From positions 372,001 to 436,000 of the forward strand of contig JASXSU010000002.1 in assembly GCA_030674875.1 (NCBI GenBank): DNA of 64,000 bases. The letters run 5' to 3'. This stretch comes from Candidatus Endonucleibacter sp. (ex Gigantidas childressi) (lineage in GTDB: Bacteria > Pseudomonadota > Gammaproteobacteria > Pseudomonadales > Endozoicomonadaceae). Positions 13,156-59,495 of the stretch are shown here, piece after piece. A program made the position numbers and the translations under genes. The notes under the pieces were generated by a model. That model was not told the origin of the DNA, did not search any database, and saw only the letters and a program-made list of their open reading frames with translations. Every line of letters starts with the position of its first letter. Positions within the stretch are counted from its first letter, which is position 1.

Positions 13156-16100
13156 CTAATCTTGATGCGATTTACACCCAGAGAGAGCCATCGGTACCGG
13201 CAGTCGTGAATAGTACGCCATAAAGTCTGCTTCATGCTTCAAAAGCTCTATCAATATTGGGAGTAGGGAACTCATTGCCGATGCTTTATGTAGGTCAAGT
13301 GCCATTGCTCTTGCAACTAAGTTATCTATAGCGTCAAAATTATTATGCCCACTTGTAAATGGAATTGTGACTGAGGGAGGTCTATATTCTAGTTCATCTG
13401 CCCCTGAGCCGCTGGCCTCTACTGTAGATATCATATCCCCGATCTCTGTATTAACAGGAGGGTGTAATATACCGTTTGTACGAGTCTTAAGTTGATGGGA
13501 AATGAACGCATGATGAAACATATGAGAGAGAGGATTATGATTTAACTTAGGTTTTTTAATAGTTTCAGTAATGGTTACAGTAACGTCCGGGGAAGTATCA
13601 TCACCATTCTTACTACGTGCATTTCTTTGAGTTAGATCTGATGCTGAATCCAAATTAATTGATTCAAACTCTGAACCTGCGCCAAAGAAATGTTCCTGTC
13701 CACTACTTTCAGTTGATTGACCATTGTTCAAAGACTTGAGCTTTAACCAGTCTTCTTGCAGAAGCGACTCACTTCTCTTTAGGAAAGCAGTCATAAAATC
13801 CGAGTGTTGAATAACTCCATCTTGTGAAAGCATGCTTATTATTTCTTTTGCGAGCAAAGTATATTTTCTTGGTGTGTCGCAACAGCTCATTGCCTGACGC
13901 CAACATGATTCTATAAGGTGACGTCCGGCTATTCGTGTAGAGGGAGGGACGTTTAGCATATTACGCGCACTCCTTTCTGAGTTACCAGCATCAACTACAA
14001 ATCCTTCTGCAGCATCTATGGCTCCTGCAAAAGTCATGGCTGCCGGGTCTCCGCTTTGCAATAGTGTGCGATTATACGGGCCTGTTACGCCATTTTTCAA
14101 ATTTCCTAGTACCGCTTGCGCATTATTCCCCATGTTCGCCGTACGCCTAGAGGATGATAACCTTTGGGATTTCCCAAGAAAATAAACAGAGGCTCCAGCG
14201 GGAACTTTTTCCTTTATAGTTCTAGTGCTCAAATTAATACCTGTTTTGAGTGTATGCTGCATAACACCTTTCCATGTGTCATCACTTTCCTTACCCTTGA
14301 CTATATTCCACAAGCGTTTGAAGGGCCTTGTTGGAAAAGCCGCTGTGAAGGGTTTAACACAAGTTCCAATAATACCGGAAGGAACTTGACTGACAGAATA
14401 CGCAAGGGCTGCACATCCTGTTATCCAAGAGGCTGCAGATAACGCTTTATCAACCGAGCGAAAAGGGATTTTTACAATCTTTTCTCCGCGGAGCAGATAT
14501 TGAGCACGTTCTGAATTGTACATTTTAGATAAGACATCCATGTCCACCTCGTTGCGAGCTTCAGTCGTATAAACTTTGGAAAGTGCTCGACTAACGGATT
14601 CATGCTTTTCAAAGGCATTAGCTTGGCAACTAAACTTTGCAATTTCACCCACGGCTATTACACCGTCAACAGTTAGCGCGAACACTCGTCCTAACAGAAT
14701 CGCTGTTTTACGCTTATCACCAGTATTTAAAAATTCTTTAAATGTATTATACGGAACTGTTCTAGTAGCCGTGCCAATTGTTCGCTCCGAGGCTCCGTCC
14801 AATCTATCACGCACTACTTGCCTGTAATTATGGGGATTATTGCCAATAATTGCTTTTAAAGGTGCACACAGCATCCCAGGACCTGCACATAAACAACAGC
14901 AACAATACGACGTCGCTTGGGAGATATTTCTTGCACAGGGTGACTTATCAAGATCACAACAAATGCCAAAGCATTTATGAACAGTAGTTTCTGGACATGT
15001 ATGGATACAGGCAAGACCATCATGGCATCTATTTATTACGTCACAGCAAGAGCTTTTGCATATGTTGCCGTCAAATGCACCATTATCATTGGAGCAATTA
15101 CAACGACATGCATATTTCAACTTGCATTCAACTGGACACCCAGGCTGGCCTGCAGCTTTGTTTTTACACTCACAAAGTTCGAAAGCCGGCTGATATAGAC
15201 ACTCACCCACCTCCATTTTTAAGTAATGCTCGGCAATTTGAGGTGGAAGCATACCTGTAATAAGGCCTATATTTTCCGTAGAGAGGGTTTTCTCCATTAT
15301 GGATAGTTGATCTCCAAACCAGCCGGCACTTTGCACCAGCCCAACAACTGTAGCCAACAAAGATGATACAATATTGGCTGTATACCAACCACTTTCCGTG
15401 GCACCAAAGTTATTATTATGTTTACTACTCATGTCAGCTGCTGTTTTATGTATTTTTTCTGCGTTTGCTCGCATTGATTTCACATAATCAACTAGCGATC
15501 CTGAGGAGGCGCTTGTTGATGATTCACGAGAGCATTCCTCTAAAGCATTAATGACGCTCTCAACGGAGGTGCCGTTGTTTGTGGGTGCGCTCAAGTCTCT
15601 AATATCCATGACGCTATCAAGAACTTCACCGCCTGACGAGAGAGACTTAGACGTTAAAAGGCTCCAAGTTATGTAAACAGGTAATATCCATACATCCCAT
15701 TTGGCCATGGCTTCAACACCACTTCTCGCGTAATTACGAATTGCACTCCACCAACCAGATAGTTGTGATCCGACTAATAACTTGTCAAGTTCAGCTATTA
15801 TTTTCCATCTTTTATTCTGATCAGTCATATCTTTACAATAAGATTTATAGAACTTATTCAGTTTTTTAAGTGCATCTGATTTCTGTATAGCTTTTACTTC
15901 TTGGTCAAGATGATGAGGCGCATGGCTATCAGCACCGTTAAGCATAAAATAAGCCAAGTGTGTACCAGTACTATCTATGTTATCTGAAAATAATTTTGAA
16001 GCTAACTCAAATAACTTAGGGGAAAATGGCTCAATTAATTCAGACTCAATTATCTTACTTGTATCATTCTCCTCACTCTCAACTTGTTCTTGATTTACAG

Positions 16101-19100
16101 GAGAGAAACACAAGTTAGATAGATTAAAACCCCCATCGTCACCAACCTCTGTCGTTCCGCATGAAATGCATGGAAGTGACATACCTTGAATTAAATATGA
16201 TAATTCGTCATCAGTATGCTGCACAATTGAGAGCGCATAATCGCAACCGAGAACTTCCTGCCAAGAACGTTCAAGACACCTGTACGCATGATAAAATTCT
16301 TCGCATCCATTGGACTTTGCGCCATCTATCTTATCTAAAGTCAGACGATTCAATAAGCAAAAATTGCTATCATCCTGAAAATAGTTTCCGGATATCTTCA
16401 GCCAGCCATTCTGTACAGACTTATTCACAATATTCTTTATTTTGGTTTTATTCTCCTGCGTTAATAAAGCCTTTTCCATTACAATAGTTATAATTTCACT
16501 AGGCTCCAAGAGTTTACAGCCTGACCTTTCTATTTCTTTGTGCTCCACCATGCTTTTGTTGTGATAGTTTTTCCTATAATCAATTACTTTATTATAACGT
16601 TTCTTTATTTCTCCATTTTCAGCTAATAGACTCTTCAAAACAGAGCACGCCTCGGCTATAGCCTGATCACCAAGGTGTTGAGATCGCTCTCGCTCAGCCT
16701 TAAATATACTGTACGTTATCACCATTTCAGTTATAAACTGGATTGAATCAATGATCTCAGGAGTCACCACCATGGTGTTACTCTCAGGGATGGTTTCTAT
16801 ACCTTTATTGCTTTTTTCCTCCCTTGCCAAGTGCCACCAGTGCTTATAATTTTTATTGAACTTAAGATAGCCAGTGGTGTTGATAAAGCTTTTTATTTCA
16901 TCTTCAGCCCACTCGCTAACTGGCTTGTGAATGCCAGCCAACTTACCCGTTTGAGAGTCACAAGGCCATTGAAATCTATCCCAAATCAGTGACTCTACTA
17001 TATCCTTAGACTTTTCTAAGAACGATCCTGGAGTACGTACGATATATTTAGCTAAAAAAGGCACAAAACTCTTGCCTTTCTTCAATTGGAGATCTACAGG
17101 AAGATGCTTTTCCTCTCTATTTTCAGCATACTTAGCTCGCTTTTTTCCATCCAAGCAAGCTTTGAGAAATAACCAAGCGTAGGTCAACTTTCCCTTACCT
17201 ATCAGTTTTTTGGTATTCATGCTGGACGAGACGTCTTTATCTTTATCTCCGTTTTCTCTTATATCTAACTTCTCAAATGCCACAAAAACATTTGTACTAT
17301 CATCCTGACTGTTATCTAAGCTCCGAGAGGCATCAGAAAGAATGTCGAAAAGATGCCTTAACGCATTAACTCCTGCATGGACTGACGTTATTTTGCCTTG
17401 CGTTGCTTTTATAAAGCAACATTCTGCCTGCCGTAACTTTTTGGCCTGCTCCGGTATATCGAATTCATTTTCTTCCTTCATTTGACTAAAAGCGTTATAG
17501 ATCTCATTCATTTTTTGCTGTATACCTAGCAAGTGCTCTAATAATACAAAAAATTTATTGGAATCTAGTCCTACGCCTCTCTTAGAGATGGTTGATTCTA
17601 TGGTGGATATCAAACAATCTCCAAATGAATCACCACTCTCCGCTTCTGATAAGAAGTCTGTATATAATCCTCGCACAATAAGAGCTATCTGCCCTGCAAC
17701 ATACGATAAGGTGGAATTTTCCAGTAAATCTTGTAAGAGTGGAGACGCGCTTTGGGTCTCCGCTTGAATGAGATTGCTGTACTCCCTATCTACTGGAAAG
17801 TGTTGAGGAAGGAGATTGTAGCTCTTGGGTACTGCTGATTTTATTCTATTCAACTCTTTTGTTATATTTAAGTAAATTTGGCTGAGTTCATCATCGTTTT
17901 GAGGTGCTTTTTTTGCCATTTGGTGCATAGCAGCTATTACCACATAGGATGTTGGGATATCGAGTAGCTCGTCACCTTCAAAGCTTTCTTTATCAAAAAA
18001 CAGCTCTTTCAGATTAGTTTTTGTATGCTCCCATAACTTATCAAGCCTTTCCGCAGACTCTCTAGCACCATTTATTAAGTCACATGTTAATTTTTGTCTA
18101 CCTTCAAACTCTACAGGAATATTACTTTCAATATACGTGACATAATCACAAAATGATTTCAATTCTGCACTGTCAGTTAATTCATTTTCTGTGTCTCTGA
18201 TGTCGCTACCAGCACTGATTGATTCTTGCGTAATAAGCTGCCATTTACCACCCCTTTCTTCAGCAACCATGCCAGCTTTTATAAAAAGTTTATGTAACGT
18301 ATGTAGCCAATGATTGTCAAGCGAAGAAATAACTCTCATACGACAAAAGGACATAATCGCAGGACACAGCTTCACACAAGTTGCGCAATTATAAATTATA
18401 ATCTTCAAGTGATCGCCAATGCTCTCAAAATGGGGACACTCCAACTTACGACAAACTTCATTAATTTCTGCTATTATATTCTGTTCATCACGTGTCTTTA
18501 TTTCGCCCACATATCTGACAAGATCTTTTATTATCTTATTAAGAAATGCAAAAGCATTCTTATATTTTTTCCCATAATCGATAGCCTTACTTTCAAGTTG
18601 CGTAGCAGCGAACGCAAGATTCCCATCCGCCTGAGGGGAGACTGCCCCCTTATCGAACTGCAAAGACTTATTTGTGGAAAAATATCGGCTTTCTTTAGCT
18701 CTTTTAATGTCGTATGAACTCAAGATCCACAAATCGTGAATACTCAAATCATTATCTTCACAAAAATGATTAAATCTGTGATGAAGAGTATCTTGACAAC
18801 AAGAGTTGGCAATATCCCATATTATTGCACGAGCCCACTCCCCATAACTTTGATGCAAAGGAATATGCTCTACAGGAAATTCAGCCTCCATTTTCTTTTT
18901 TATTTCCATCCACATCTCTATTGGACATACTCCCGTTGGAGCACTGGAGCATACTGAAGATATATTTCTGCTCGGAAGGGTTGACTGGCTTACTAAGCAT
19001 TCTGTGGGTTTAGATACAAACCCATCTGATTGTATTTTCTTTAACATCTCCACTTTTAGCAACATTCCAGAGCAGCTCCCTGACACTATGGAGCCCAACT

Positions 19101-19920
19101 CTGACTTATCATCCACTAGAGGTAAAGGTATAACATTAAATTCTGAGCCCTTATTGCAAATTGTGGCTGGACAGCAAGAATTATCGTTAAAAACAATCAT
19201 CGGAAGCACGCTTCCACTCTTCTCTAGATAATTATCACCCTCTAAAAGAGACGCTACCAACAGCCCTTTCACTTGTTTATTGGAAGCATTCCCTGCGTAA
19301 GAATTGGGTGATAGCAACCTACCCGTCCTTATCCTTATGCTGGAAATTGGTTTATAATTTGTGATAAAATGTGCAACTATATCACCAGAGTATTTGCTGA
19401 ACTCCTCAAAAAAAGATACAGTTGAGCCATTTGCTAGGGTTAAGCTACATTTATCTGTTAACGCCTTGTTAAGATATATTTTCCCTTGAAATGATTTAGG
19501 TTTAAATGAGAACTTACTACTATCTGGGAGTTTTTCATGTCCAGATTCTTCAATCTGTATATCTGTATTTGATGTTAAATAATAATTTTTTGTACGTTCA
19601 TCCAAACTTTTATCATCAAATTCAAGGCATATACGTGAAATCGGGTTATCTTCTTTCTCAGGAAAGCACCATTCTATATACCATTCACTTTTTTGGGATA
19701 CATTTTCACGACCCTCTTCGTCATTAATATTATCTGAGAAAAGGCAAGTACGATAGCAAGAAGGAAAGTCTGTTTGCTTTTTATCTACCTGGATACAAGA
19801 GAAAACATCCACGCAAAATGAGTCGTTAGCTTGTATAAAACAAAAAGAAAAAATAGTGATGAAAAAAAACTTGCGTATCTGCAATCTATAATCTTGTGTT
19901 TTAAGTACGATATTATTCAT
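13156..19920 (-). CDS. very large secreted protein of unknown function with cysteine cluster (2254 aa)
   Basis: One uninterrupted frame of 6.8 kb amid decayed DNA, so it is probably under selection. The N-terminus has a signal-like segment (RKFFFITIFSFCFIQANDSFC, about residues 16-36). Residues about 60-250 resemble the small secreted family encoded at 21.5-27.3 kb (see findings). The middle (about 300-1450) is helical and charged. Around 1510-1540 there is a hydrophobic stretch (NIVSSLLATVVGLVQSAGWFG), followed at about 1569-1690 by a cluster of some 24 cysteines, including YCCCCLC. Other hydrophobic segments lie near 1725 and 1815. The tail is Ser/Thr/Asp-rich. No enzyme motif was recognised. 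No operon partner is adjacent. Export and size suggest a surface or effector protein, unproven. Confidence 0.75.
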   Translation of the reverse strand: MNNIVLKTQDYRLQIRKFFFITIFSFCFIQANDSFCVDVFSCIQVDKKQTDFPSCYRTCLFSDNINDEEGRENVSQKSEWYIEWCFPEKEDNPISRICLEFDDKSLDERTKNYYLTSNTDIQIEESGHEKLPDSSKFSFKPKSFQGKIYLNKALTDKCSLTLANGSTVSFFEEFSKYSGDIVAHFITNYKPISSIRIRTGRLLSPNSYAGNASNKQVKGLLVASLLEGDNYLEKSGSVLPMIVFNDNSCCPATICNKGSEFNVIPLPLVDDKSELGSIVSGSCSGMLLKVEMLKKIQSDGFVSKPTECLVSQSTLPSRNISSVCSSAPTGVCPIEMWMEIKKKMEAEFPVEHIPLHQSYGEWARAIIWDIANSCCQDTLHHRFNHFCEDNDLSIHDLWILSSYDIKRAKESRYFSTNKSLQFDKGAVSPQADGNLAFAATQLESKAIDYGKKYKNAFAFLNKIIKDLVRYVGEIKTRDEQNIIAEINEVCRKLECPHFESIGDHLKIIIYNCATCVKLCPAIMSFCRMRVISSLDNHWLHTLHKLFIKAGMVAEERGGKWQLITQESISAGSDIRDTENELTDSAELKSFCDYVTYIESNIPVEFEGRQKLTCDLINGARESAERLDKLWEHTKTNLKELFFDKESFEGDELLDIPTSYVVIAAMHQMAKKAPQNDDELSQIYLNITKELNRIKSAVPKSYNLLPQHFPVDREYSNLIQAETQSASPLLQDLLENSTLSYVAGQIALIVRGLYTDFLSEAESGDSFGDCLISTIESTISKRGVGLDSNKFFVLLEHLLGIQQKMNEIYNAFSQMKEENEFDIPEQAKKLRQAECCFIKATQGKITSVHAGVNALRHLFDILSDASRSLDNSQDDSTNVFVAFEKLDIRENGDKDKDVSSSMNTKKLIGKGKLTYAWLFLKACLDGKKRAKYAENREEKHLPVDLQLKKGKSFVPFLAKYIVRTPGSFLEKSKDIVESLIWDRFQWPCDSQTGKLAGIHKPVSEWAEDEIKSFINTTGYLKFNKNYKHWWHLAREEKSNKGIETIPESNTMVVTPEIIDSIQFITEMVITYSIFKAERERSQHLGDQAIAEACSVLKSLLAENGEIKKRYNKVIDYRKNYHNKSMVEHKEIERSGCKLLEPSEIITIVMEKALLTQENKTKIKNIVNKSVQNGWLKISGNYFQDDSNFCLLNRLTLDKIDGAKSNGCEEFYHAYRCLERSWQEVLGCDYALSIVQHTDDELSYLIQGMSLPCISCGTTEVGDDGGFNLSNLCFSPVNQEQVESEENDTSKIIESELIEPFSPKLFELASKLFSDNIDSTGTHLAYFMLNGADSHAPHHLDQEVKAIQKSDALKKLNKFYKSYCKDMTDQNKRWKIIAELDKLLVGSQLSGWWSAIRNYARSGVEAMAKWDVWILPVYITWSLLTSKSLSSGGEVLDSVMDIRDLSAPTNNGTSVESVINALEECSRESSTSASSGSLVDYVKSMRANAEKIHKTAADMSSKHNNNFGATESGWYTANIVSSLLATVVGLVQSAGWFGDQLSIMEKTLSTENIGLITGMLPPQIAEHYLKMEVGECLYQPAFELCECKNKAAGQPGCPVECKLKYACRCNCSNDNGAFDGNICKSSCCDVINRCHDGLACIHTCPETTVHKCFGICCDLDKSPCARNISQATSYCCCCLCAGPGMLCAPLKAIIGNNPHNYRQVVRDRLDGASERTIGTATRTVPYNTFKEFLNTGDKRKTAILLGRVFALTVDGVIAVGEIAKFSCQANAFEKHESVSRALSKVYTTEARNEVDMDVLSKMYNSERAQYLLRGEKIVKIPFRSVDKALSAASWITGCAALAYSVSQVPSGIIGTCVKPFTAAFPTRPFKRLWNIVKGKESDDTWKGVMQHTLKTGINLSTRTIKEKVPAGASVYFLGKSQRLSSSRRTANMGNNAQAVLGNLKNGVTGPYNRTLLQSGDPAAMTFAGAIDAAEGFVVDAGNSERSARNMLNVPPSTRIAGRHLIESCWRQAMSCCDTPRKYTLLAKEIISMLSQDGVIQHSDFMTAFLKRSESLLQEDWLKLKSLNNGQSTESSGQEHFFGAGSEFESINLDSASDLTQRNARSKNGDDTSPDVTVTITETIKKPKLNHNPLSHMFHHAFISHQLKTRTNGILHPPVNTEIGDMISTVEASGSGADELEYRPPSVTIPFTSGHNNFDAIDNLVARAMALDLHKASAMSSLLPILIELLKHEADFMAYYSRLPVPMALSGCKSHQD

Positions 19921-20354
19921 ATATTACAATGTTCCTGTCACTCAATATCTTCAATACTTAGCGCGCTAGCCACTATATACTAGCAATTATTAAAGGTGTT
20001 AATTTTTATCGATCTCGCCCGCCATCAATAGTCACCGGTGTAGCAAGAGCCATAGTGCATGACATAATTATATCCACACGTCCTCATCTGCCTACAAGTT
20101 CATTGCTATACTTATACCGCCGTAGTAGGTGAGTGTCTATTTAAATAAGTGGCTACATCCATACATACATAAGCATGGGAGACTATAACAAAAAGACTAT
20201 TTGTATGTATATACAAATTTATATTAAAACACATATCCTATACCCATCTGAGCTCAAGTACAGGTTTGAGAACCTAAAAATTATCGCTAATCCTAATGAT
20301 CAACAAAACACCAACTTCCAGTACAGTACTGTAGTTATACAATAAGTGCAACAA
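19921..20354. other. gene-free stretch upstream of the large secreted protein
   Basis: AT-rich and without a credible frame. Faint pieces of the A2 repeat (CAATAGTCACCGGTGTAGC near 20026-20044) are visible. The promoter of the large minus-strand gene should lie in the first 150 bases but no clear consensus boxes were found. Confidence 0.35.
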
Positions 20355-20783
20355 CCTATGTCCGGGACAAAATATTTAGCAGATCTAAAAAAGTGGTTTG
20401 ATCATTTTTTGCACAGCTGTTTTTGAGCACCCGTCTAAGCCCATCCAAACCTAATATAAACAGGCTCTTGGCTGGACGGCAATGCTTGTTCAGCGGAATT
20501 GATTTGCATTCCCATAACACCAGAGCCCTACTAGTAGGCACCACACAACAGCAATCGTCAGTAGTCCAATCAGTTTATCCATCCGCTCAAGGTTCGTCAT
20601 CTGTGTGGACTCCAAATCAAAGCCCCGACTTTTTAGATTGCCAAACATGGTTTCAATACTCCAGCGCTTACAATAGTCATCTATTATACTGTCTGGATTT
20701 TTAGTAGCTACGACGATCAACAATCCTTTCAGAGTTCGACGGACTGCAATATAGAGCGGCACTCCCGATACATGCATCTTGGT
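20355..20783 (-). pseudogene. IS4-type transposase relic (C-terminal part)
   Basis: The right end, CCTATGTCCGGGACAAAA, resembles the ends of other IS4-type relics here (58481, 47378, 62863). On the minus strand the residues YCKRWSIETMFGNLKSRGF contain the YREK-like region and catalytic Glu of IS4/IS10-type transposases. Only the last third of the gene remains and it has frame breaks after ANQFR. It is fused at about 20783 to an IS30-type relic in the opposite direction. Confidence 0.75.
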
Positions 20784-21385
20784 CGCCAGTGCAAGAAGTA
20801 TGACAAGCGACGAAACGGCAAGTTAACGGCGGCCAGATAAAGAACCGCGTCAGCATGATGATCGCCCAGAGATCGTTGACGATAAATCGCGTATCGGAGA
20901 CTGGGAGATTGATACCATCATTGGCAAAGGACATAGCTGGGCTTTGGTAACTATCGTCTAGCTGGTCACGAAGTACACGGCTCAGCCCAGGCGAACAGCA
21001 AAATCGCAGCAGATGTGACAAGGGCTACGATCAGCTTGCTCAACCCATGCAAGAATATTATTCACACCATTACGGCTGACAACGGGAAAGAGTTTTCGTA
21101 CCATGAGAAAATCAGCCAAGCATTATCGGCGGAGGTTTACTTTGCGCACTCCTACAGCTCTTGGGAGCGAGGGTTAAATGAAAACACCAACGGCTTGCTA
21201 CGACGATATTTTCCAAAGAATACAGACTTCAAGAAAGTCGGTCAGATAGTGTGAAACGAGCATTGATGCGGCTTAATTCTCGGCCAAGAAAAGATTTGAA
21301 TTTTAAAACACCCGCTCTGATAATGGGTGAACACAAGGCTGCGTTAGCAGCTTAAGCTTTGATGCACTTGGAATTTGAATCCGCG
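20784..21385 (+). pseudogene. IS30-type transposase relic (C-terminal half)
   Basis: Several frames together give RIGDWEIDTIIGKGHSWALVT (first catalytic Asp), TADNGKEFSYHEKISQAL (second Asp) and SSWERGLNENTNGLLRRYFPK (Glu), the DDE triad order of IS30. Stops and shifts separate them. The right end, ATGCACTTGGAATTTGAATCCGCG, resembles the terminal repeat found in the 114-bp element at 53982-54095. The 5' half is missing. The family is distinct from the IS30 element at 22428-23504. Confidence 0.75.
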
Positions 21386-21387
21386 AA

Positions 21388-21441
21388 GTATATAAACCCA
21401 CTCCATATAAAACACAACCAAGTTGCACAGAATTAGAAATT
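21388..21441 (-). pseudogene. lptG fragment (duplication scar 1)
   Basis: The stretch ACCCACTCCATATAAAACAC and following bases to TTGCACAGAATTAGA match intact lptG at about 28015-28065 (CTCACTCCATATAAAACACCACCTGGTTGCACAGCATTAAA). It lies just downstream of the first secreted paralogue, cut on the left by the IS30-type relic. Confidence 0.6.
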
Positions 21442-21492
21442 AACACCATTGAAGTTAATGAGTATATTATCTAAAACTGCGCCATATCAATA

Positions 21493-22308
21493 TTACTGAT
21501 AATCTAATATACAACCGAGCAACTCACAAATACACTCTGCCGCGCCTAAGGAATCTGTCTCATCCGTACTGCCTAACACCTTAAACGATAAAGAAAGCTT
21601 TGTCTCTACCTTATACAAAGAACCACAGCTACAAATAGACGGTCCAACATCTAACTCTAGCCCCCCGCAATGGCCGCAGAGATAATCAAAATGGTTATAC
21701 ACCTTCCCTCTACCCCCTTCTACTACCTCACTAGACCTCACTTCATCTTTTCTACAATATGATATAGTACCTTGGCCTGTATCTTTATCACAAACAAAGT
21801 CCCCACCCATGGTATTAACTGTGACCCAGGGCACCTTTAACACACTTAGCTCTTTATTAGAATTTCTTATCTCAATATTTATCTCATTACCATTCGCACT
21901 ACCGTTTTTAAATACCATCAACGGTGACATAGGCTCCCTAGAAGAAGATGCACCAGTATCTTCCAAATACACAAAGAAAGCAGGTTTTATAGTGTTAATG
22001 GAAAACATAGTCGTGTTTTCTATGATCTTATCCACATGAACCATCTGAACTTTTGAAATTACTATATTAGATTTATTATCATAATAAGTAATACTATCCT
22101 CTTCATACTTCTCTTTTATATCCTGACAAATTACAGGGCTTGAAAGAGAGTAAAGCAACTCCCACGGCTCATTAAAACTCTCGCAGCTGAATGCCTTGCC
22201 TTCATTAACGATACTTATACCCGCCCAACAAGAAGCACCGCAGAATAACATAAAGAACAACACAACAAAAGGCTGAAAGCACTTTCCGTACCTATACAAC
22301 AAAAACAT
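21493..22308 (-). CDS. secreted protein, tandem family member 1 (271 aa)
   Basis: Unrecognised family, one of four tandem paralogues (21493, 23658, 25116, 26497). It starts MFLLYRYGKC, then has a hydrophobic signal segment ending ASCWAG, so it is exported. Conserved blocks across the family are PW.L.YSL....ICQDI...Y, a run of beta-like strands around NIVISKV, NTTMFSI...P.FFVYLE, and PMSPLMVFK. Near the C-terminus lies CGHC...CSC, part of a conserved C-x2-C...C-x-C pattern that could bind metal or form disulfides. This member is closest to member 3. It has an extra Cys-containing tail (CICELLGC). A TATAAT-like box lies about 30 bases upstream. Confidence 0.75.
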   Translation of the reverse strand: MFLLYRYGKCFQPFVVLFFMLFCGASCWAGISIVNEGKAFSCESFNEPWELLYSLSSPVICQDIKEKYEEDSITYYDNKSNIVISKVQMVHVDKIIENTTMFSINTIKPAFFVYLEDTGASSSREPMSPLMVFKNGSANGNEINIEIRNSNKELSVLKVPWVTVNTMGGDFVCDKDTGQGTISYCRKDEVRSSEVVEGGRGKVYNHFDYLCGHCGGLELDVGPSICSCGSLYKVETKLSLSFKVLGSTDETDSLGAAECICELLGCILDYQ

Positions 22309-22335
22309 AATTTACACCTAATTTAATGTTAAGGA

Positions 22336-22341
22336 ATTATA
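22336..22341 (-). promoter_or_regulatory. putative -10 box of secreted paralogue 1
   Basis: On the minus strand GCTATAATTCC sits about 28 bases before the ATG at 22308. The whole upstream block (ending TTAACATTAAATTAG before the start) is nearly identical upstream of paralogue 3 at 25916-25921, which supports a shared promoter. No strong -35 is visible at 17 bp. Confidence 0.5.
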
Positions 22342-22399
22342 GCTCATGCAAAGCTTTTTACTGACTTATTCTTAGAACGAACCACGCTAAACATACAGC

Positions 22400-22427
22400 A
22401 TACAGCAAGCGACAAGCGACAAGCGAC
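22400..22427. repeat. short tandem repeat (about 7-bp units)
   Basis: Units of CAAGCGA repeat before the IS30 left end. Equivalent runs of AAGCGAT units lie at 24539-24556 and 25995-26035, in the same position upstream of paralogues 2 and 3, so the run is part of the duplicated unit. Confidence 0.55.
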
Positions 22428-23504
22428 GCTGGATCAATATAATAAGTGCAATTGACTAAAATCTTATAGGTGAGCCAGCTGCCGGTATATTTGTAGCTAT
22501 CACCCTAAAAATGGAAGCCAAGAATGAGTACTCAAACTAGGCCATACAAGCAGCTTACTCAAAGGCAACGGTATCAGATTGAGGCTCTTCTTAGAACAGA
22601 CTACATGCAGAAAGAAATCGCAGTGTCAGTAGGTATCAGTGAGAGTGCTTTATAACGAGAGTTGAGTCGTAATGCCAATGATGATGGCTACGGTGCTGAA
22701 AGCACCCACGCACTAGCCAGTCAGCGTAGAGTAAAAGCTACAAAGTTCAGCAAAACAGGTAAACGACACATGCCCATAATAAAGAAAGGGCTATTGCTTG
22801 GTTGGTCTCCTGAAAATATCAGTTTCCGGATGAAGGTGGAAGTGCCCGACATCGCACTCAGCCACACCACTGTTTATAAACGTGTTGCTACTAACAAAGT
22901 GCTAGGAGGCTCTTTGCATAAGAATCTACCCCGCTTTGGCAAGAGGCGCTGCAAAGGTGGTAAGCGTAAGGCTGGGCGTATCACGATCCCAGGCCGCGTC
23001 GATATTTCCGATCGGCCCGCAGTTGTTGATCTGCGGTCTCGTTAGGCGATTGGGAGGGTGATACTATTTATGGACAGGACGCCCATCTGGTCACCCTTGT
23101 AGACCGCAAAAGTCGGTTAACTTTAATAGGAAAAGTTGATACAAAACACGCCGAAGTTGTTGCTGAAAGTATGATCAAGCTTCTGAAGCGGGTGTCATCG
23201 GTCTGCACAGTCACCCTAGATAATAGTGGTGAGTTTGCAGCCCATGAGAAAGTAGCAAAATCAATGAATGCAGATATCTACTTTGCCAAGCCTTATGCTA
23301 GTTATCAGCGGGGAACTAACGAAAATACCAATGGCATCATTCGGAGAACCTGGCCTAAAAAAATGGCGTTGAGTCATCTAACAGAAGATGATCTGAGGAC
23401 AATGGAAATGTTGATCAATACCATGCCTAGGAAGGTTTTAGGAGGGCGAACACCACTCGAAGTCTACACAGGACAGCCGATTGCACTTATTGCTTGAATC
23501 CAGC
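22428..23504 (+). mobile_element. IS30-type insertion sequence, copy A (inactive)
   Basis: Left end GCTGGATCAATATAATAAGTG (22428 on) and right end ATTGCACTTATTGCTTGAATCCAGC form imperfect inverted repeats; the length is 1077 bp. The transposase would start at the ATG at 22524 (MSTQTRPYKQLTQ). A TAA at 22653 replaces a Ser codon in SESALSREL, and a one-base deletion near 23040 shifts frame in RSRLGDWEGD. Catalytic landmarks still readable are LGDWEGDTIYGQD, VTLDNSGEF and RGTNENTNGIIRRTWPK. It landed between secreted paralogues 1 and 2. Confidence 0.88.
22524..23497 (+). pseudogene. IS30 family transposase pseudogene (copy A)
   Basis: About 324 codons when the two lesions are repaired. It has an N-terminal helix-turn-helix (MQKEIAVSVGISESAL, also the place of the nonsense mutation) and a C-terminal DDE core. 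The open pieces are 22662-23045 and 23171-23497. In copy B the same gene has a different single lesion, so the copies decayed independently. Confidence 0.85.
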
Positions 23505-23592
23505 ATCACCTATTACTCGTAGGCTCATTGGGTTCGCTTATTTATCGCAAATTGGCACCTTCAATTGTAAGAATGCACACTATTGAAGTTAA
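23505..23592. repeat. family-A repeat fragment beside IS30-A
   Basis: CACCTATTACTCGTAGGCTCATTGGGTTCGC matches the central part of the dispersed repeat and TTGAAGTTAATGGGTATGC its right end. The left half is missing, probably cut by the IS30 insertion. Confidence 0.5.
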
Positions 23593-23657
23593 TGGGTATG
23601 CTACTTGAAACTGCGTCACATTAATGTTACAAACGTGAATCAACCAGTCGAAATATT

Positions 23658-24422
23658 TTATTCACCCACACTATCTAGCACCCTAAACGAGAAAGAAAGC
23701 TTTGTCTTTATCATATCCACCAATTTGCAGCTACAAGAAAAAGGTCTTCTAACATCAATCAACCCTCCCCCACGGCAAGTGCTGCACAACTTATAAACTC
23801 TATCATACACCACCCCACGCTTATCCCCATATTTTTTTTGTTCCCTACTACACCTACTTTCACCTACTCTATAATATGACATAGTACCTAGGCCGTTGAC
23901 TTTATCATAAATAAAACTCTCCTCACGCGTCCGCACTACTACGCACGACATCGGCAACACCTCTATCTCTTTATTAGAATTTCTTATCTCAATCTTTATT
24001 ATCTTATCACTTTCCTCACGTTTTCTGCTAAACACCAACAGCGGAGACATAGGACCCCATAAAGAGGGCGCACCAACACTTTCCAAATATACAAAGAAAA
24101 CAGGACAGTCAGTGTCAATGGAAAACAGGCTAGTGTTTTCTATGACATTTGTCACATCAACCATCAAAACTTTTGAAATTACTACATTATATTTATCATA
24201 ATAAGTAACACTATCCTCATTATAACTATCCCTTATATCTTTACAAATCACAGAGCTTGAGAGAGAGTAAAACAACCGCCATGGCTCACTCAAATATTCG
24301 GTTCTGAATGCCTTACCTTCATCAATTATCTCTATACCTGCCAAAGACGCACTACAGAATAACATAAATAATAATGCCACAAAAGACTGCCTGCACTTTC
24401 CACACTTATACAACAAAAACAT
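23658..24422 (-). CDS. secreted protein, tandem family member 2 (254 aa)
   Basis: Paralogue with the same start (MFLLYKCGKC), signal segment ending SASLAG, and family blocks PWRLFYSLSSSVICKDI, NVVISKVLMV, NTSLFSI...FFVYLE and PMSPLLVF. The C-terminal cysteine motif is CSTCRGG...SCSC. It is more diverged from members 1 and 3 than they are from each other, with a Lys/Arg-rich insert (YDRVYKL region) before the motif. Downstream on its strand is an IS30 copy instead of the lptG scar seen for others. Its function is unknown. Confidence 0.75.
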   Translation of the reverse strand: MFLLYKCGKCRQSFVALLFMLFCSASLAGIEIIDEGKAFRTEYLSEPWRLFYSLSSSVICKDIRDSYNEDSVTYYDKYNVVISKVLMVDVTNVIENTSLFSIDTDCPVFFVYLESVGAPSLWGPMSPLLVFSRKREESDKIIKIEIRNSNKEIEVLPMSCVVVRTREESFIYDKVNGLGTMSYYRVGESRCSREQKKYGDKRGVVYDRVYKLCSTCRGGGLIDVRRPFSCSCKLVDMIKTKLSFSFRVLDSVGE

Positions 24423-24538
24423 AATTTACACACTTAATTTAATCTAATATTAAAGGGTTTTAGTCTATACAAAACTTTCTGCCGCCTCTGCGCTTGCACT
24501 ACTTTCCTTATGACGAATAACTCTAGACATACAAAAAG

Positions 24539-24556
24539 CGATAAGCGATAAGCGAT
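24539..24556. repeat. short tandem repeat (AAGCGAT units)
   Basis: AAGCGATAAGCGATAAGCGAT upstream of paralogue 2, matching the runs at 22400 and 25995. It is shorter here. Confidence 0.5.
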
Positions 24557-24589
24557 AACGGAAATATATCAGGCCATTTAATTGCTACA

Positions 24590-24880
24590 AGTCACATACC
24601 ACTCCGCGAACTATAATCACCCCCACAACAAAGCAAAGAGCAGGAAGAATCAAAACCGCCAGAACAGATGAAAAACCAAGCACCAATCTTAAAGAACCAA
24701 TCAAACTTTGAATAACCGTAAAAACAATACCAATGTTCACACCTGAGAGCACTCTTAATCCCATACCGACAAAACGAAATTACCAAAAATTAAATGAAAG
24801 GCTAATCATGACCAAAGAAAAAAACAGACTGATGCTGTACAATCTCAATTCAAAATATTAGCCGATACTATCACTAGCCC
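24590..24880 (-). pseudogene. lptG 3'-end duplicate (scar 2)
   Basis: The stretch from about 24598 matches intact lptG from 27472 on, covering its last ~90 codons: membrane-segment coding around ATCAAAACCGCCAGAACA and AACCAATCAAACTTTGAA, and the region TGAAAGGCTAATCATGACC. Frame is lost by indels. It ends where the 139-bp element at 24893 begins. It lies upstream of paralogue 2 and downstream of paralogue 3, as expected if a unit of secreted gene plus lptG end was duplicated. Confidence 0.8.
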
Positions 24881-24892
24881 GCCACTCAATAT

Positions 24893-25031
24893 GAGACCTT
24901 TGCACGAGCCGTAATTTTGTTAGTCGGTGAGGAAAACACGCACTAAAATAGATGATTTATGCTTGTAAATTATCGATTTAGTGCGTTTTTAAAGCAGCCA
25001 GCTGGCAAAAGAACAATCGTGCAAAGGTCTC
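24893..25031. mobile_element. 139-bp MITE-like element (family B), copy 1
   Basis: Perfect 15-bp terminal inverted repeats GAGACCTTTGCACGA and TCGTGCAAAGGTCTC. ATAT flanks both sides, suggesting a target duplication. Second copy at 54276-54414 is over 90 percent identical by eye. It has no coding capacity. The GAGACC ends resemble those of the IS5-type element here, so an IS5-class transposase may mobilise it; inference. Confidence 0.82.
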
Positions 25032-25115
25032 ATATTATCTAAACCTCCGCCATATTAATATTATTACTCTACCTTATCATCCAACTAATCAACCCACAAA
25101 TCCGATTTTTCGAGG

Positions 25116-25886
25116 CTATGGATGGGAATCTTTCTCATCCGTGATGTATAGCACCTTAAACGAGAAAGAAAGCTTTGTCTCTACCTGATACAAAGGACCA
25201 CAGTCACAAATAGACTGTTCACAATCTATATCTATACCCAGGCAACGGCTGCAGACCTTATGAAAATTGCCATACACCTTCCCTCGACCCCCTTCTACTA
25301 CCTTATCACTAGACTTCACTTCATCTTTTCTACAATATGACATAGTACCTAGGCCGTTTACTTTATCATAAACAAAGTCTCCACCCAAAGTCTTAACTGT
25401 GACCCAGGACGCCTTAAACACACTTAGCTTTTTATTAGAATCTCTTATCTCAACATTTATCTCATTACCCTTCGCACTATCGTTTTTAAATACCATCAAC
25501 GGTGACATAGGATCCCAAGCAGAAGATGCACCAGTATCTTCCAAATACACAAAGAAAACAGGTTTTCCAGCGTTAATGGAAAACATAGTCGTGTTTTCTA
25601 TGATCTTATCCACAGAAACCGCCATAACTTTTGAAATTACTATATTAGATTTATTAGTATAATAAGTAATACTATCCTCTTCATACTTCTTCTTTATATC
25701 CTGACAAATTACAGAGCCTGAAAGAGAATAAAGCAATTTCCATGGCTTACTAAAACAACCGCATTCGAATGCCTTGCCGTTATGAACTATACTTACTCCC
25801 GCCCAACAAGAAGCACCGCAGCATAACATAAATAACAACACAACAAAAGACTGAAAGCACTTTCCGTACCTATACAACAAAAACAT
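25116..25886 (-). CDS. secreted protein, tandem family member 3 (256 aa)
   Basis: Very close to member 1 through most of its length: MFLLYRYGKCFQ, signal ending ASCWAG, then PWKLLYSLSGSVICQDI, NIVISKV and EDTGASSAWDPMSPLMVFK, and cysteine motif CSRC...CDC. It differs in a shorter tail and in scattered charged residues. The near-identity with member 1, including upstream DNA, points to a recent duplication or gene conversion. Its function is unknown; export is likely. Confidence 0.75.
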   Translation of the reverse strand: MFLLYRYGKCFQSFVVLLFMLCCGASCWAGVSIVHNGKAFECGCFSKPWKLLYSLSGSVICQDIKKKYEEDSITYYTNKSNIVISKVMAVSVDKIIENTTMFSINAGKPVFFVYLEDTGASSAWDPMSPLMVFKNDSAKGNEINVEIRDSNKKLSVFKASWVTVKTLGGDFVYDKVNGLGTMSYCRKDEVKSSDKVVEGGRGKVYGNFHKVCSRCLGIDIDCEQSICDCGPLYQVETKLSFSFKVLYITDEKDSHP

Positions 25887-25915
25887 AATTTACACACCTA
25901 ATTTAATGTTAAGGA

Positions 25916-25921
25916 ATTATA
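25916..25921 (-). promoter_or_regulatory. putative -10 box of secreted paralogue 3
   Basis: Minus-strand GCTATAATTCC about 30 bases before the ATG at 25886, in an upstream block nearly identical to that of paralogue 1. Confidence 0.5.
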
Positions 25922-25977
25922 GCTCATGCAAAACTTTTTGCTGACTGATTCTTAGAACGAACCACGCTAAACATACG

Positions 25978-26037
25978 ACATACAGCATACAGCATACAAC
26001 AAGCGATAAGAGATAAGCGATAAGCGATAAGCGACAA
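25978..26037. repeat. short tandem repeats (ACATACAGCAT and AAGCGAT units)
   Basis: Runs CATACAGCATACAGCATACA and several AAGCGAT/AAGAGAT units stand upstream of paralogue 3. The longest of three such runs in the array. The unit size is too small and there is no spacer structure, so it is not a CRISPR. Confidence 0.6.
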
Positions 26038-26082
26038 TAAAAATGTAGCAGATCATTTTCTTTCTTATGCAACTCTGCAAAT

Positions 26083-26465
26083 CATCACACCCCTCAACCA
26101 AACAAGGGGCAAGATAAATCAAACCTGTCAGAACCAATGAAAAACCAAACATCAACCTCAAAGAATCTAGCAAACCTTGAATAACTGTAAAAACCATACC
26201 TATGATCACACCTAAGAATACTCTTAACCCAATACTGACAGAACGAAGTGAGCAAAAAATAAATACAGGCTAATCATAACCAAAGCAATAACAGACAGCT
26301 ACTGTAAAACTTTAAGTCAAAATATCATCAGAGTACGTTTTCAGATCAGTCATAGAAAGCTCATCAGCCTTCAAAATAACAATTTTTAATAATGCTATTC
26401 TAAGAGTGGCCAAAAGACCCAGTTAGCTTTGCTTCCACGATATATAGTTTTCCATTAAAGTGATA
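26083..26465 (-). pseudogene. lptG 3'-end duplicate (scar 3)
   Basis: Matches intact lptG from about 27475 to 27910 in order, for example ATCAGAGTACGTTTTCAGAT against 27775 and TTCCATTAAAG against 27899, with a deletion of about 60 bases in the middle. It is the longest of three lptG pieces and abuts the 3' side of paralogue 4. The frame is broken. Confidence 0.82.
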
Positions 26466-26496
26466 CACTATCTGAAACTACGCCATATGTATATTA

Positions 26497-27312
26497 TTAT
26501 TCTACCTTAACATCAGACTTGACCAAAACCCAATCACTCGAATCTATGATATCTGATGTATCCGTACTATTTAACACCCTAAATGAGAAAGAAAGATGTG
26601 TTTCTATAAATTCCTCAAAACAACAGTTACAAGGATCAGCGCCATAAGGTTTAGCCGCCCTACAAGAGTCACAGATATAAAAACTCTTAGCATACACCTC
26701 CCCCCGCCTTGTATCCCTCCCCTCTTTTCCCGTTCTCTCTTTACAACTCATTTCATTGTACCTCGAATATAAAATAGCACCTACGCCACTCTCCTCATCA
26801 AGAGACCACCTCTCAGTCTCAACGGTGACCCACGGCACAACCACCAGTTTTAGCGCTTCCTCTGGACTGGCACCTTTCATCTCAAACCTTATCTCATCAC
26901 CACCCACACTCTTGTTTTTAAATATCAATAGCGGCGACACAGGATCATACGCAGAGGGCGCAACAACATTACCCAAATACACAATGAAAGCAGGCTCGTT
27001 CGTGTCAATAGAAAACAGAGTCGTGTTTTGTATGACATCAACACTAACCCTCAAAACTCTTGAAATTACTATATTAGGCTTGGATTGATACTGAGTAAGA
27101 CTAACCTCATTATACTTATCCCTTATATCCTCACAAATAACAGTGCCTGGTAGAGAATAATTCAAACTCCATGGCTCACGAAAAACTTCACTTGTGAATG
27201 CCCTACCCTCATTAATTATATCTATACCAGCCCAGGAAACACTACAAAATAACATCAATAAAAACGCCACAAAAGACTGCTTGCACTTTTCGCATATATT
27301 TAATAAAAACAT
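26497..27312 (-). CDS. secreted protein, tandem family member 4 (271 aa)
   Basis: The member nearest to intact lptG and so probably the parent copy. It starts MFLLNICEKC, signal ends SVSWAG, then family blocks PWSLNYSLPGTVICEDI, NIVISRVLRV, NTTLFSI...FIVYLG and PVSPLLIFK. The cysteine motif CDSC...CNCC is kept. It is the most diverged in the middle (EEALKLVVVPWVTVE). It lies 156 bp downstream of lptG on the same strand and may be partly cotranscribed with lptFG. Its function is unknown. Confidence 0.75.
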   Translation of the reverse strand: MFLLNICEKCKQSFVAFLLMLFCSVSWAGIDIINEGRAFTSEVFREPWSLNYSLPGTVICEDIRDKYNEVSLTQYQSKPNIVISRVLRVSVDVIQNTTLFSIDTNEPAFIVYLGNVVAPSAYDPVSPLLIFKNKSVGGDEIRFEMKGASPEEALKLVVVPWVTVETERWSLDEESGVGAILYSRYNEMSCKERTGKEGRDTRRGEVYAKSFYICDSCRAAKPYGADPCNCCFEEFIETHLSFSFRVLNSTDTSDIIDSSDWVLVKSDVKVE

Positions 27313-27467
27313 AAATTACAACCCTAATCTCATTTAACGTTAAGTATCATATTCTATGCAAAATTTCTTGCTAATAATGTACTTACCCTATGCTTCTTCG
27401 GACTAATCACTTTTGACATACAGAATGCGAGATACAACAATAGTAACACAATAAATTACTAGTTTGC

Positions 27468-28526
27468 TTATGCCACTCTGCGAATCATAACCACCCCCAC
27501 AACCAAGCAAAGTGCAGGAGGGATCAAAACTGCCAGAACAGGTGAAAAACCAAATACTAAGCTCAAAGGGCCGAGCAAACTTTGAAGAACCTTAAAAACA
27601 ATACCGACGATCACACCTGTGAATACTCTTAACCCCATACTGACAGAGCGAAGTGGCCCAAAAACAAATGAAATGCTAATCATAACCAACGCAAAAACAG
27701 ACAGCGGCTGTAAAACTTTAATCCAAAAAGCCAGCCGATATTCACCACTGTCCAAATCCTGCCGCTCAAGATAATCAGAGTACGTTTTCAGACCTGACAT
27801 AGAAAGCCCATCAGGCTTCAAAATAACAACTTTTAATAATGAGGTTGTAAGAGTGGTTTCCCAAAGCTCAACCAGATTTTCTTCCATAATATAGCGTTTT
27901 CCATTAAAGCGGCTGCGCTTTACATCTTCCAGGATCCAGTGATCACCTTGAAAAACACCCCTCTTGGCAAATAGAGACTGCTCAAGTTCCATGTTTTCAT
28001 TAAAGGTATACAAGCTCACTCCATATAAAACACCACCTGGTTGCACAGCATTAAAATACATAAACTCATTACCTTCACGATGCCACATACCCTCCCCTGT
28101 ATAGATCCCCCCCGCAGAACGAGCAATAGTACGGTGAGTTTCCGCAACTTGTTCCAGCATCGGAGCAAAAAACTCCCCCAACAAAATACCGATAAAAACT
28201 AAAACCAACGCAGGCCTCATAGCCGACAAAATAATGCGCCACAGCGATATACCAGCCGCCCTCATAACCACCAGCTCACAGTTTGAGGCCATATTACCCA
28301 GACCAACCAAGCAACCAATCAATGCCGCAAAAGGAATAAAGCTATAGATTTTTTTGGGTACAAGTAAAACGATATAAAAAAAAACATTCACCATCGTGTA
28401 CTGGGCACGCATATTAGCTAACTGAGCCAAAAAAGCAAACAGAGACTCCAACATAACCAAGCCAAATAGAACAATCATCATTGCCCCAAAAACATTGCGC
28501 GCAATATAACGATCCAGCCTAACCAC
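27468..28526 (-). CDS. lptG: LPS export permease LptG
   Basis: LptG pairs with LptF in the inner-membrane LptB2FG ABC transporter that extracts lipopolysaccharide. The 352-aa protein has the family topology: about three N-terminal membrane segments (including GAMMIVLFGLVMLESLFAFLA), a periplasmic domain (about 110-270), then three C-terminal segments (VFALVMISISFVFG and on). LVVMRAAGISLWRI is the coupling-helix region. It starts with GTG, supported by AGGAGAG upstream, and overlaps the lptF end by 8 bp. Pieces of its 3' half are scattered among the downstream secreted genes. Confidence 0.94.
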   Translation of the reverse strand: MVRLDRYIARNVFGAMMIVLFGLVMLESLFAFLAQLANMRAQYTMVNVFFYIVLLVPKKIYSFIPFAALIGCLVGLGNMASNCELVVMRAAGISLWRIILSAMRPALVLVFIGILLGEFFAPMLEQVAETHRTIARSAGGIYTGEGMWHREGNEFMYFNAVQPGGVLYGVSLYTFNENMELEQSLFAKRGVFQGDHWILEDVKRSRFNGKRYIMEENLVELWETTLTTSLLKVVILKPDGLSMSGLKTYSDYLERQDLDSGEYRLAFWIKVLQPLSVFALVMISISFVFGPLRSVSMGLRVFTGVIVGIVFKVLQSLLGPLSLVFGFSPVLAVLIPPALCLVVGVVMIRRVA

Positions 28527-36620: not shown

Positions 36621-36738
36621 CCAGTTACCATTGAAGGTGTGAGTAGGCGACAAACGAGCGAAGCCCACCATGAGCCTACGAATAGTAGGTGATCTGGCTG
36701 AGAGTCAACACCCCCAAACCTTTAAGGTAATGGGTATA
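36618..36738. repeat. family-A repeat, TATACCAG variant
   Basis: Starts TATACCAGTTACCATTGAAG, holds CGAATAGTAGGTGATCTGG in the centre and ends TTTAAGGTAATGGGTATA. It abuts the previous copy head to tail, sharing the TATA. Confidence 0.65.
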
Positions 36739-48177: not shown

Positions 48178-49254
48178 GCTGGATTAATATAATAAGTGCA
48201 ATTGACTAAAATTTTATAGGTGAGCCAGCTGCCGGTATATTTGTAGCTATCACCCTAAAAATGGAAGCCAAGAATGAGTACTCAAACTAGGCAATACAAG
48301 CAGCTGACTCAAGGGCAACGGTATCAGATTGAGGCTCTTCTTGGACAGACTACATGCAGAAAGAAATCGCAGTGTCAGTAGGTATCAGTGAGAGTGCTTT
48401 ATCACGAGAGTTGAGTCGTAATGCCAGTGATGATGGCTACGGTGCTGAAAGCGCCCACGCACTAGCCAGTCAGCGTAGAGTGACAGCTACAAAGTTTAGC
48501 AAAACAGATGAACGACACATGCCCATAATAAAGAAAGGGCTATTGCTTGGTTGGTCTCCTGAAAATATCAGTTTCCGGATGAAGGTGGAAGTGCCCGACA
48601 TCGCACTCAGCCACACCACTGTTTATAAACGTGTTGCTACTAACAAAGTGCTAGGAGGCTCTTTGTATAAGAATCTACCCCGCTTTGGCAAGAGGCGCTG
48701 CAAAGGTGGTAAGCGTAAGGCTGGGCGTATCACGATCCCAGACCGCGTCGATATTTCCGATCGGCCCGCAGTTGTTGATCTGCGGTCTCGTCTAGGCGAT
48801 TGGGAGGGTGATACTATTTATGGACAGGACGCCCATCTGGTCACCCTTGTAGACCGCAAGAGTCGGTTAACTTTAATAGGGAAAGTTGATACAAAACACG
48901 CCGAAGTTGTTGCTGAAAGTATGATCAAGCTTCTGAAGCGGGTGTCATCGGTCTGCACAGTCACCCTAGATAATGGTGGTGAGTTTGCAGCCCATGAGAA
49001 AGTAGCAAAAGCAATGAATGCAGATATCTACTTTGCCAAGCCTTATGCTAGTTATCAGCGGGGAACTAACGAAAATACCAATGGCATCATTCGGAGAACC
49101 TGGCCTAAAAAAATGGCGTTGAGTCATCTAACAGAAGATGATCTGAGGACAATGGAAATGTTGATCAATACCATGCCTAGGAAGGTTTTAGGAGGGCGGA
49201 CACCACTCGAAGTCTACACAGGACAGCCGATTGCACTTATTGCTTGAATCCAGC
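48178..49254 (+). mobile_element. IS30-type insertion sequence, copy B
   Basis: Ends as in copy A (GCTGGATTAATATAATAAGTG and ...TTGCTTGAATCCAGC). Over 95 percent identical to copy A by eye. It carries one lesion, a one-base deletion near 48344. Immediately followed by a direct 295-bp repeat of its own 3' end. It sits just upstream of the restriction-modification operon. Confidence 0.88.
48274..49247 (+). pseudogene. IS30 family transposase, N-terminal frameshift (copy B)
   Basis: The natural ATG is at 48274. A deletion near 48344 (CTTGG-ACAG instead of CTTGGAACAG) shifts frame after about 23 codons. From the ATG at 48354 (MQKEIAVSVGISESALSREL) 297 codons are open, covering the helix-turn-helix and all of the DDE core: GDWEGDTIYGQD, VTLDNGGEF and GTNENTNGIIRRTWPK. 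Initiation at 48354 could still make a nearly complete protein lacking the first residues; activity is uncertain. Confidence 0.82.
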
Positions 49255-49549
49255 GTCACCCTAGATAATGGTGGTGAGTTTGCAGCCCATGAGAAAGTAG
49301 CAAAAGCAATGAATGCAGATATCTACTTTGCCAAGCCTTATGCTAGTTATCAGCGGGGAACTAACGAAAATACCAATGGCATCATTCGGAGAACCTGGCC
49401 TAAAAAAATGGCGTTGAGTCATCTAACAGAAGATGATCTGAGGACAATGGAAATGTTGATCAATACCATGCCTAGGAAGGTTTTAGGAGGGCGGACACCA
49501 CTCGAAGTCTACACAGGACAGCCGATTGCACTTATTGCTTGAATCCAGC
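49255..49549 (+). repeat. 295-bp direct tandem duplication of the IS30-B 3' end
   Basis: Positions 49255-49549 repeat 48960-49254 essentially base for base, joining directly after the right terminal repeat. It encodes the second Asp and Glu part of the transposase core and ends with a second copy of the right terminal repeat. The 5' portion of the IS is not repeated. Confidence 0.9.
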
Positions 49550-59368: not shown

Positions 59369-59495
59369 TATACCCAAAGCATTTCAAATTGCTACTAGGC
59401 AGTAAGTAACCGAAGCCCGTGAGCCTACGAGTAGTAGGTGATCGGGGTGAGCGAACGCAGCCAACAACGTAGCAACTTGAAAGGCGACGGGTATA
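59369..59495. repeat. family-A repeat separating IS4 and IS30 relics
   Basis: Nearly identical in ends and centre to the 126-bp copies inside the IS5-type transposases: TATACCCAAAGCATTTCAAA at left, GTAGCAACTTGAAAGGCGAC and GGGTATA at right. It lies exactly at the break between the two transposase relics. Confidence 0.8.

Follow-up and report, generated by a model that had tools for sequence, protein, structure and literature searches.

Four genes for probably secreted proteins and pieces of lptG

We analyzed a 64,000-nucleotide stretch of the Candidatus Endonucleibacter sp. (ex Gigantidas childressi) genome, hereafter the window (contig C2:372001-436000; the genome searched comprises 3.68 Mb in 12 contigs). 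Here, four paralogous genes, named A to D, follow lptG, and broken pieces of lptG, the scars psi1, psi2 and psi3, lie among them. On the minus strand, moving away from lptG, the order is lptG, A, psi3, B, a 146-bp element, psi2, C, an insertion sequence, D, psi1 and further insertion sequences (Table 1). The donor gene matches the LptG profile over its full length (1-353 of 353); its nearest relatives among seven named loci belong to Endozoicomonas sp. ISHI1 (65%) and E. arenosclerae (63%). As an earlier note on this DNA had described, the four genes lie behind an intact lptG on the same strand. They correspond to four open minus-strand reading frames sharing 45-75% amino-acid identity. No RNA family reaches its gathering score in the window.

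The same note had claimed that pieces of lptG separate and follow the genes. By blastn within the window, psi3 (26061-26460) matches lptG at 73.6% over 447 columns with 48 gaps (E = 3e-79), psi2 (24575-24892) at 76.0% over 325 columns (E = 1e-63) and psi1 (21388-21438) at 84.3% over 51 bp (E = 1e-8). Local alignment scores against lptG are 202.5, 164.5 and 35.5 for psi3, psi2 and psi1, respectively. The best of 200 shuffles per piece reached 29, 27 and 24.5, and lptG on the wrong strand gave 12, 10.5 and 16; all three pieces score above every shuffle and are thus real. Between C and D, on the other hand, an insertion sequence is found and no lptG piece, as the flanks of the insertion score 9 and 11 against lptG, within the range of the shuffles. 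That psi2 and psi3 come from the lptG of this locus is borne out by identities of 78% and 81% to it, as compared to 53-58% to the lptG genes of two same-genus genomes (G001 and G002), so that an origin from the lptG of another species is unsupported.

Psi3 carries an internal deletion of about 41 bases that has no counterpart in psi2. Five of the six indels in psi3, and two of three in psi2, are not divisible by three. Differences between scars and lptG number 26/14/26 and 19/12/22 by codon position; three comparisons of intact lptG genes give 31/13/64, 35/22/59 and 37/17/60. Most likely, the scars have no function of their own.

Table 1. Features of the array and its surroundings, in the order met when moving away from lptG (positions in the window)
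Feature	Position	Strand	Evidence or remark
lptG, intact, donor of the captured 3' end	27468..28526	-	PF03739, E 3.5e-70; open reading frame of 352 aa
Unit A spacer, without heptamer tract	27313..27467	-	Alignments; no tandem-repeat row
Paralog A, 271 aa	26497..27312	-	Signal-like N-terminus
psi3, lptG 3' fragment before B	26061..26465	-	Matches lptG up to window 27909
Heptamer tracts, spacer B	25970..26034	-	AACATAC x4.6, AAGCGAT x4.9 (+ strand reading)
Paralog B, 256 aa	25116..25886	-	
146-bp element with inverted-repeat ends, at B-psi2 joint	24892..25037		
psi2, lptG 3' fragment before C	24575..24892	-	
Heptamer tract, spacer C	24536..24558	-	AAGCGAT x3.3 (+ strand reading)
Paralog C, 254 aa	23658..24422	-	
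Insertion sequence at the expected C-D scar site	22428..23513 (end approximate)	+	Repeat similarity
Heptamer tracts, spacer D, ending at the insertion sequence	22392..22427	-	CATACAG x2.3, CAAGCGA x3.1 (+ strand reading)
Paralog D, 271 aa	21493..22308	-	Closest to B, 74.5% aa identity
psi1, internal lptG fragment after D	21388..21441	-	Matches window 28006-28056
Two insertion-sequence fragments adjoining psi1	20353-20771 and 20769-21385		

A repeated unit and the origin of its lptG end

The A and B units align unbroken from inside lptG to beyond the gene (27909-26475 with 26460-25042, 67%), and so do the A and C units (27772-26549 with 24892-23653, 70%). Hence, A, B and C are head-to-tail units whose collinearity extends across the gene and its non-coding flank, and the repeated unit consists of the lptG 3' end, a spacer, the gene and a short 3' flank. 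This is the unit of the earlier note, the lptG end plus the secreted-protein gene, extended by the spacer and the 3' flank. The latter carries GGCGNAGNTTNAGATA in three of the four copies and lacks it in C. The internal units begin with the lptG 3' end in B and C; in D an insertion sequence occupies this place. In addition, the spacers of B, C and D contain heptamer tracts upstream of the gene starts. An exact match to CGCTTRTCGCTTRTCGC exists in each of these three spacers and nowhere else in the genome; the copies use slightly different units, CGCTTAT for B and C, CGCTTGT for D. The restriction of the tract to B, C and D agrees with a single capture of the lptG end.

The scars differ at their 5' ends, which correspond to lptG at window position 27909 for psi3, about 27772 for psi2 and 28056 for psi1, and psi1 has no overlap with either of the other two. 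ACTTCAATRG is present in the flanks of C and D, and GCTTTAATGG in lptG at the psi3 joint (read by eye). Given these short repeats, a longer joint like that of psi1 could have been turned into the psi3 joint by a later deletion between them. The psi2 joint is occupied by the 146-bp element. The scar after D suggests that a further unit formerly stood there; when positions 19921-20370, left of psi1, were compared with the window by blastn to find a relic of a fifth gene, nothing below E 0.2 was returned except the query itself.

The insertion sequence between C and D, which we take to be IS30-like, is over 22428-23510 97.8% like window positions 48178-49260. Next to it, before the C 3' flank, the segment 23500-23570 is 80-85% like 36625-36697 and 59403-59442, and may therefore be further mobile DNA. 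The 146-bp element, likely a miniature inverted-repeat transposable element, is found at at least 40 places in the genome with copies 92-100% alike (best 40 of 75 candidates). The insertion sequence that abuts psi1 (20769-21385) has at least 38 other genome places (best 40 of 304 candidates; 49 rows, of which 11 represent the second half of a split copy), with copies 85-93% alike, many of them partial.

According to the earlier note, each duplication left a new scar of lptG. The two overlapping scars tell otherwise. We computed a maximum likelihood tree (HKY+G4) from the 267 columns with bases in lptG, psi2 and psi3, using as outgroups 14 lptG genes from 29 other lptG loci. Psi2 and psi3 pair in this tree with an ultrafast bootstrap of 100. 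In the approximately unbiased (AU) test, this pairing has P = 0.998 and each pairing of a scar with lptG is rejected (P = 0.00175 and 0.00178). The two scars have 11 derived bases in common, one of which turns the same Trp codon TGG into TGA. With two outgroups, conflicting sites number 1 and 1 among 184 polarised sites; with 14 outgroups, they number 2 and 0 among 180. Since the decay runs towards A and T (10 of the 11 shared changes), parallel change was tested by permuting one scar among sites with the same lptG base, with the codon position also kept, or with the next base also kept. On 145 polarised sites, the mean numbers of shared changes under these nulls were 4.9 (P = 0.00065), 5.3 (P = 0.00265) and 7.1 (P = 0.0193). 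Over all 267 sites, the 21 shared differences were reached in none of 20,000 permutations under each of the three nulls. As psi2 and psi3 are sisters, a single capture of the lptG end is most likely, with the captured piece decaying first and being carried along with the gene thereafter.

Several observations weigh against a single capture. With next-base context kept, the excess of shared sites has only P = 0.019, and some of the 10 AT-ward changes among the 11 are possibly parallel. The branch of lptG itself has a length of about 0, compared with 0.13 shared by the scars plus 0.17 and 0.19 for each, for which we have no good account. A clock predicts synonymous divergence (dS) between A and B, C or D to be about 1.7 times that between B and C; the observed values are 0.45-0.51 and 0.42. 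Finally, conversion between units following two captures would look identical to a single capture.

The idea that every duplication restarted from the intact lptG end, so that independent scars rank the events, draws on the differing scar 5' ends, as independent breakpoints would produce, and on the AT-ward bias of the shared bases, part of which may be parallel change. It is rejected on the psi2/psi3 overlap by the AU test (P = 0.0018 for each lptG pairing) and by the shared TGA, subject to the context-preserving null above; it also sits poorly with a heptamer tract that the A spacer lacks and with B and D being the closest pair despite C in between. We regard it as improbable. We give equally little credence to two captures of the lptG end with a later conversion that made psi2 and psi3 alike. 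The unbroken whole-unit similarity between copies would fit such an exchange, as would the B-D identity of 72-97% per 100-base window along the unit, which displays no clear tract edge. However, this scheme requires extra events, and the conversion would have been incomplete, because the internal deletion of psi3 is missing from psi2.

Nor do the scars record the order of duplication, as had been proposed: psi1 overlaps neither of the others, no scar precedes D, and C splits the closest pair. Amino-acid identity is 74.5% for B-D, 55% for C-D, 54% for B-C and 45-49% for A against the others; the copies are not near-identical, as concerted evolution would have them. Because B and D are closest and not adjacent, the scars do not rank the copies, and the last step was either a conversion or a duplication, the latter of a block or with subsequent loss. 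Gene and scar trees agree where they can be compared, as had been expected, lptG | psi2, psi3 being compatible with A | C, B. Rooted as A | (C, (B, D)), the genes are in accord with lptG | (psi2, psi3), the root being taken from the scars and not from the genes.

Divergence of the encoded proteins

All four paralogs have signal-like hydrophobic N-termini ending in W-A-G or L-A-G (read by eye), and are probably exported via Sec. Their invariant cysteines include a C-x-x-C and a C-x-C motif. Searches with A and with a profile of the four sequences found only these four members in the genome. None of the four proteins matched a Pfam or NCBIfam family at E 1. PHROGs gave two matches only (E 0.067 for B and 0.3 for D), and solved structures gave seven at E up to 1, the best being a ribosomal protein (E 0.25); all were taken as chance. 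The four sequences yielded a fold model of insufficient quality (mean pLDDT 37).

We analyzed codon evolution using omega, the ratio of nonsynonymous (dN) to synonymous (dS) substitution rates. The site model with a class at omega above 1 (M2a) was compared with the nearly neutral model (M1a) by a likelihood ratio test (LRT). The LRT was 25.4 on 255 codons. In three stricter sets it was 20.3 (244 codons without gaps), again 20.3 (152 codons, those near gaps excluded) and 19.4 (131 codons of the mature protein, with the same exclusion). The fast class comprises 20-23% of codons at omega 4.2-6.3; ten codons belong to it with a posterior above 0.9, and alignment columns 41, 107, 218 and 243, for example, exceed 0.95. 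None of 223 null simulations reached the LRT of the data (0/23, maximum 10.7; 0/200, maximum 9.7), with fewer optimiser starts than for the data (one and two, then one and one, against two and three). In the signal region, omega is 0.13-0.26 in three of four pairs tested, and 0.45, not significant, for B-D. A simple comparison of dN for B-C (0.354) with the psi2-psi3 difference (61/267 sites) points in the same direction as the site model.

Positive selection on part of the protein has results to contend with. No pair has a whole-gene omega significantly above 1 (B-D 1.45, P = 0.22), and the tree-wide omega is 0.87 (LRT 1.1 against 1). The site model rests on four sequences and on our own code, unchecked against a published program, and it places no codon in the conserved class with a posterior above 0.9. 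In the B-D comparison, 95 of 765 gene sites differ as compared to 5 of 90 spacer sites, a weak contrast (P = 0.057); this alignment has gaps of 3 and 1, the second close to where the C-termini differ. DNA-level gaps between the more distant genes were set aside as noise of the alignment. Accordingly, one may ask whether the genes are relaxed, nearly neutral duplicates. Pairwise omega values of 0.67-1.45, none significantly different from 1, would fit this, together with the tree-wide value. However, all four frames are open, and when B was evolved neutrally in simulation it stayed free of stops in 10.8% of runs at 50 substitutions and in 1.7% at 105, about the B-D total. In addition, the nearly neutral model is outperformed by one that has a codon class at omega below 0.1 and another at 4-6. 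We therefore hold relaxation to be unlikely, though it has more in its favor than the alternatives to a single capture.

Overall, we favor with good confidence a history of single lptG capture, unit amplification, scar trimming and protein diversification. A gene for a small, probably Sec-secreted protein would have come to adjoin lptG downstream. Breakpoints of tandem duplications can fall inside a flanking gene, and one such event may have had its breakpoints inside lptG and some tens of bases past the secreted-protein gene. In its product, a second unit would stand behind lptG-A and join the 3' end of lptG to another gene copy, in line with the collinearity seen in the alignments. The lptG copy in this second unit would have been free to decay. 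The decayed end, with heptamer spacer and gene, would then have been re-duplicated at least two times, the units probably recombining with each other. If the array is rooted on A, a first round would have separated C from the ancestor of B and D, and a later one would have produced these two. The insertion sequences now present, along with putative small deletions, may later have shortened the scars unequally and eliminated both the C-D scar and any sequence that once lay beyond psi1. Meanwhile, the mature proteins would have diversified by positive selection at a subset of sites, with the signal region and the cysteine skeleton kept, possibly as exported proteins meeting a changing partner, perhaps host molecules.

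A more far-reaching view is that the array, adjoining an essential operon, serves to diversify exported proteins that interact with the host, such that strains would differ in the rapidly evolving paralogs that they carry. The shared scars and heptamer tracts would then serve as homology by which units continue to expand, contract and be exchanged. We consider both parts of this view speculative and rather unlikely.

The duplication process itself is of a known and ordinary kind; its record is unusually clear. Being linked to the genes and decaying as non-coding DNA, the scars provide a built-in neutral yardstick for change in the protein-coding genes. They also separate a lptG end captured once and amplified from one captured each time, a test that, in our opinion, should seldom be possible within one bacterial genome. 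In addition, the locus points to a fast-changing, probably exported protein family of Endozoicomonadaceae that is absent from the family libraries searched.

Relatives and known systems

Among 57 genomes, the family profile found members only in this genome (four) and in G001 (one); the latter is distant (E 1.7e-7) and lies far from lptG. Both same-genus genomes keep lptF-lptG with no array after lptG. Behind the array, the window contains a minus-strand open reading frame of 2254 aa (13156-19920) with a signal-like N-terminus and cysteine-rich stretches, and without a match in NCBIfam. A G001 frame of at least 1226 aa, beside a valyl-tRNA-synthetase-like gene, is 25% identical to it. BIR-domain matches number 28 in this genome (in about 12 open frames, on contigs C1, C2 and C3), 11 in G001 and 9 in G002; none was found in 14 control genomes.

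The array is not described in the literature found on lptG pseudogenes or duplication, tandem arrays, join points, secreted families, Endozoicomonas or Endonucleobacter. A study on two Ca. Endonucleobacter species reports an insertion-sequence content of 10-11%, with 7 apoptosis inhibitors in one species and 13 in the other (PMC11521996). These inhibitors likewise form a multi-copy family with Sec signals in insertion-sequence-rich genomes of Endozoicomonadaceae (PMC11521996). The array proteins differ in having no Pfam match, not even to BIR.

Short-homology tandem duplication in bacteria, as described for an engineered case, creates a new join point, and later copies carry the same junction (PMC11111574), as found here. 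That duplication was engineered and selected, with 9-bp borders (PMC11111574), whereas the present event is old and its decayed captured gene end is usable as a clock. The PEX/NEX genes of Parachlamydiaceae, birth-and-death families of candidate effectors in these intracellular bacteria, form lineage-specific tandem arrays with family fragments in intergenic DNA (PMC4209131), which resembles the present arrangement. However, the fragments mapped to PEX1 are the family's own, while those between the array genes stem from an unrelated housekeeping gene; and PEX/NEX evolve under purifying selection, with M0 dN/dS of 0.29-0.63 (PMC4209131), in contrast to the codon class with omega above 1 in the array studied here.

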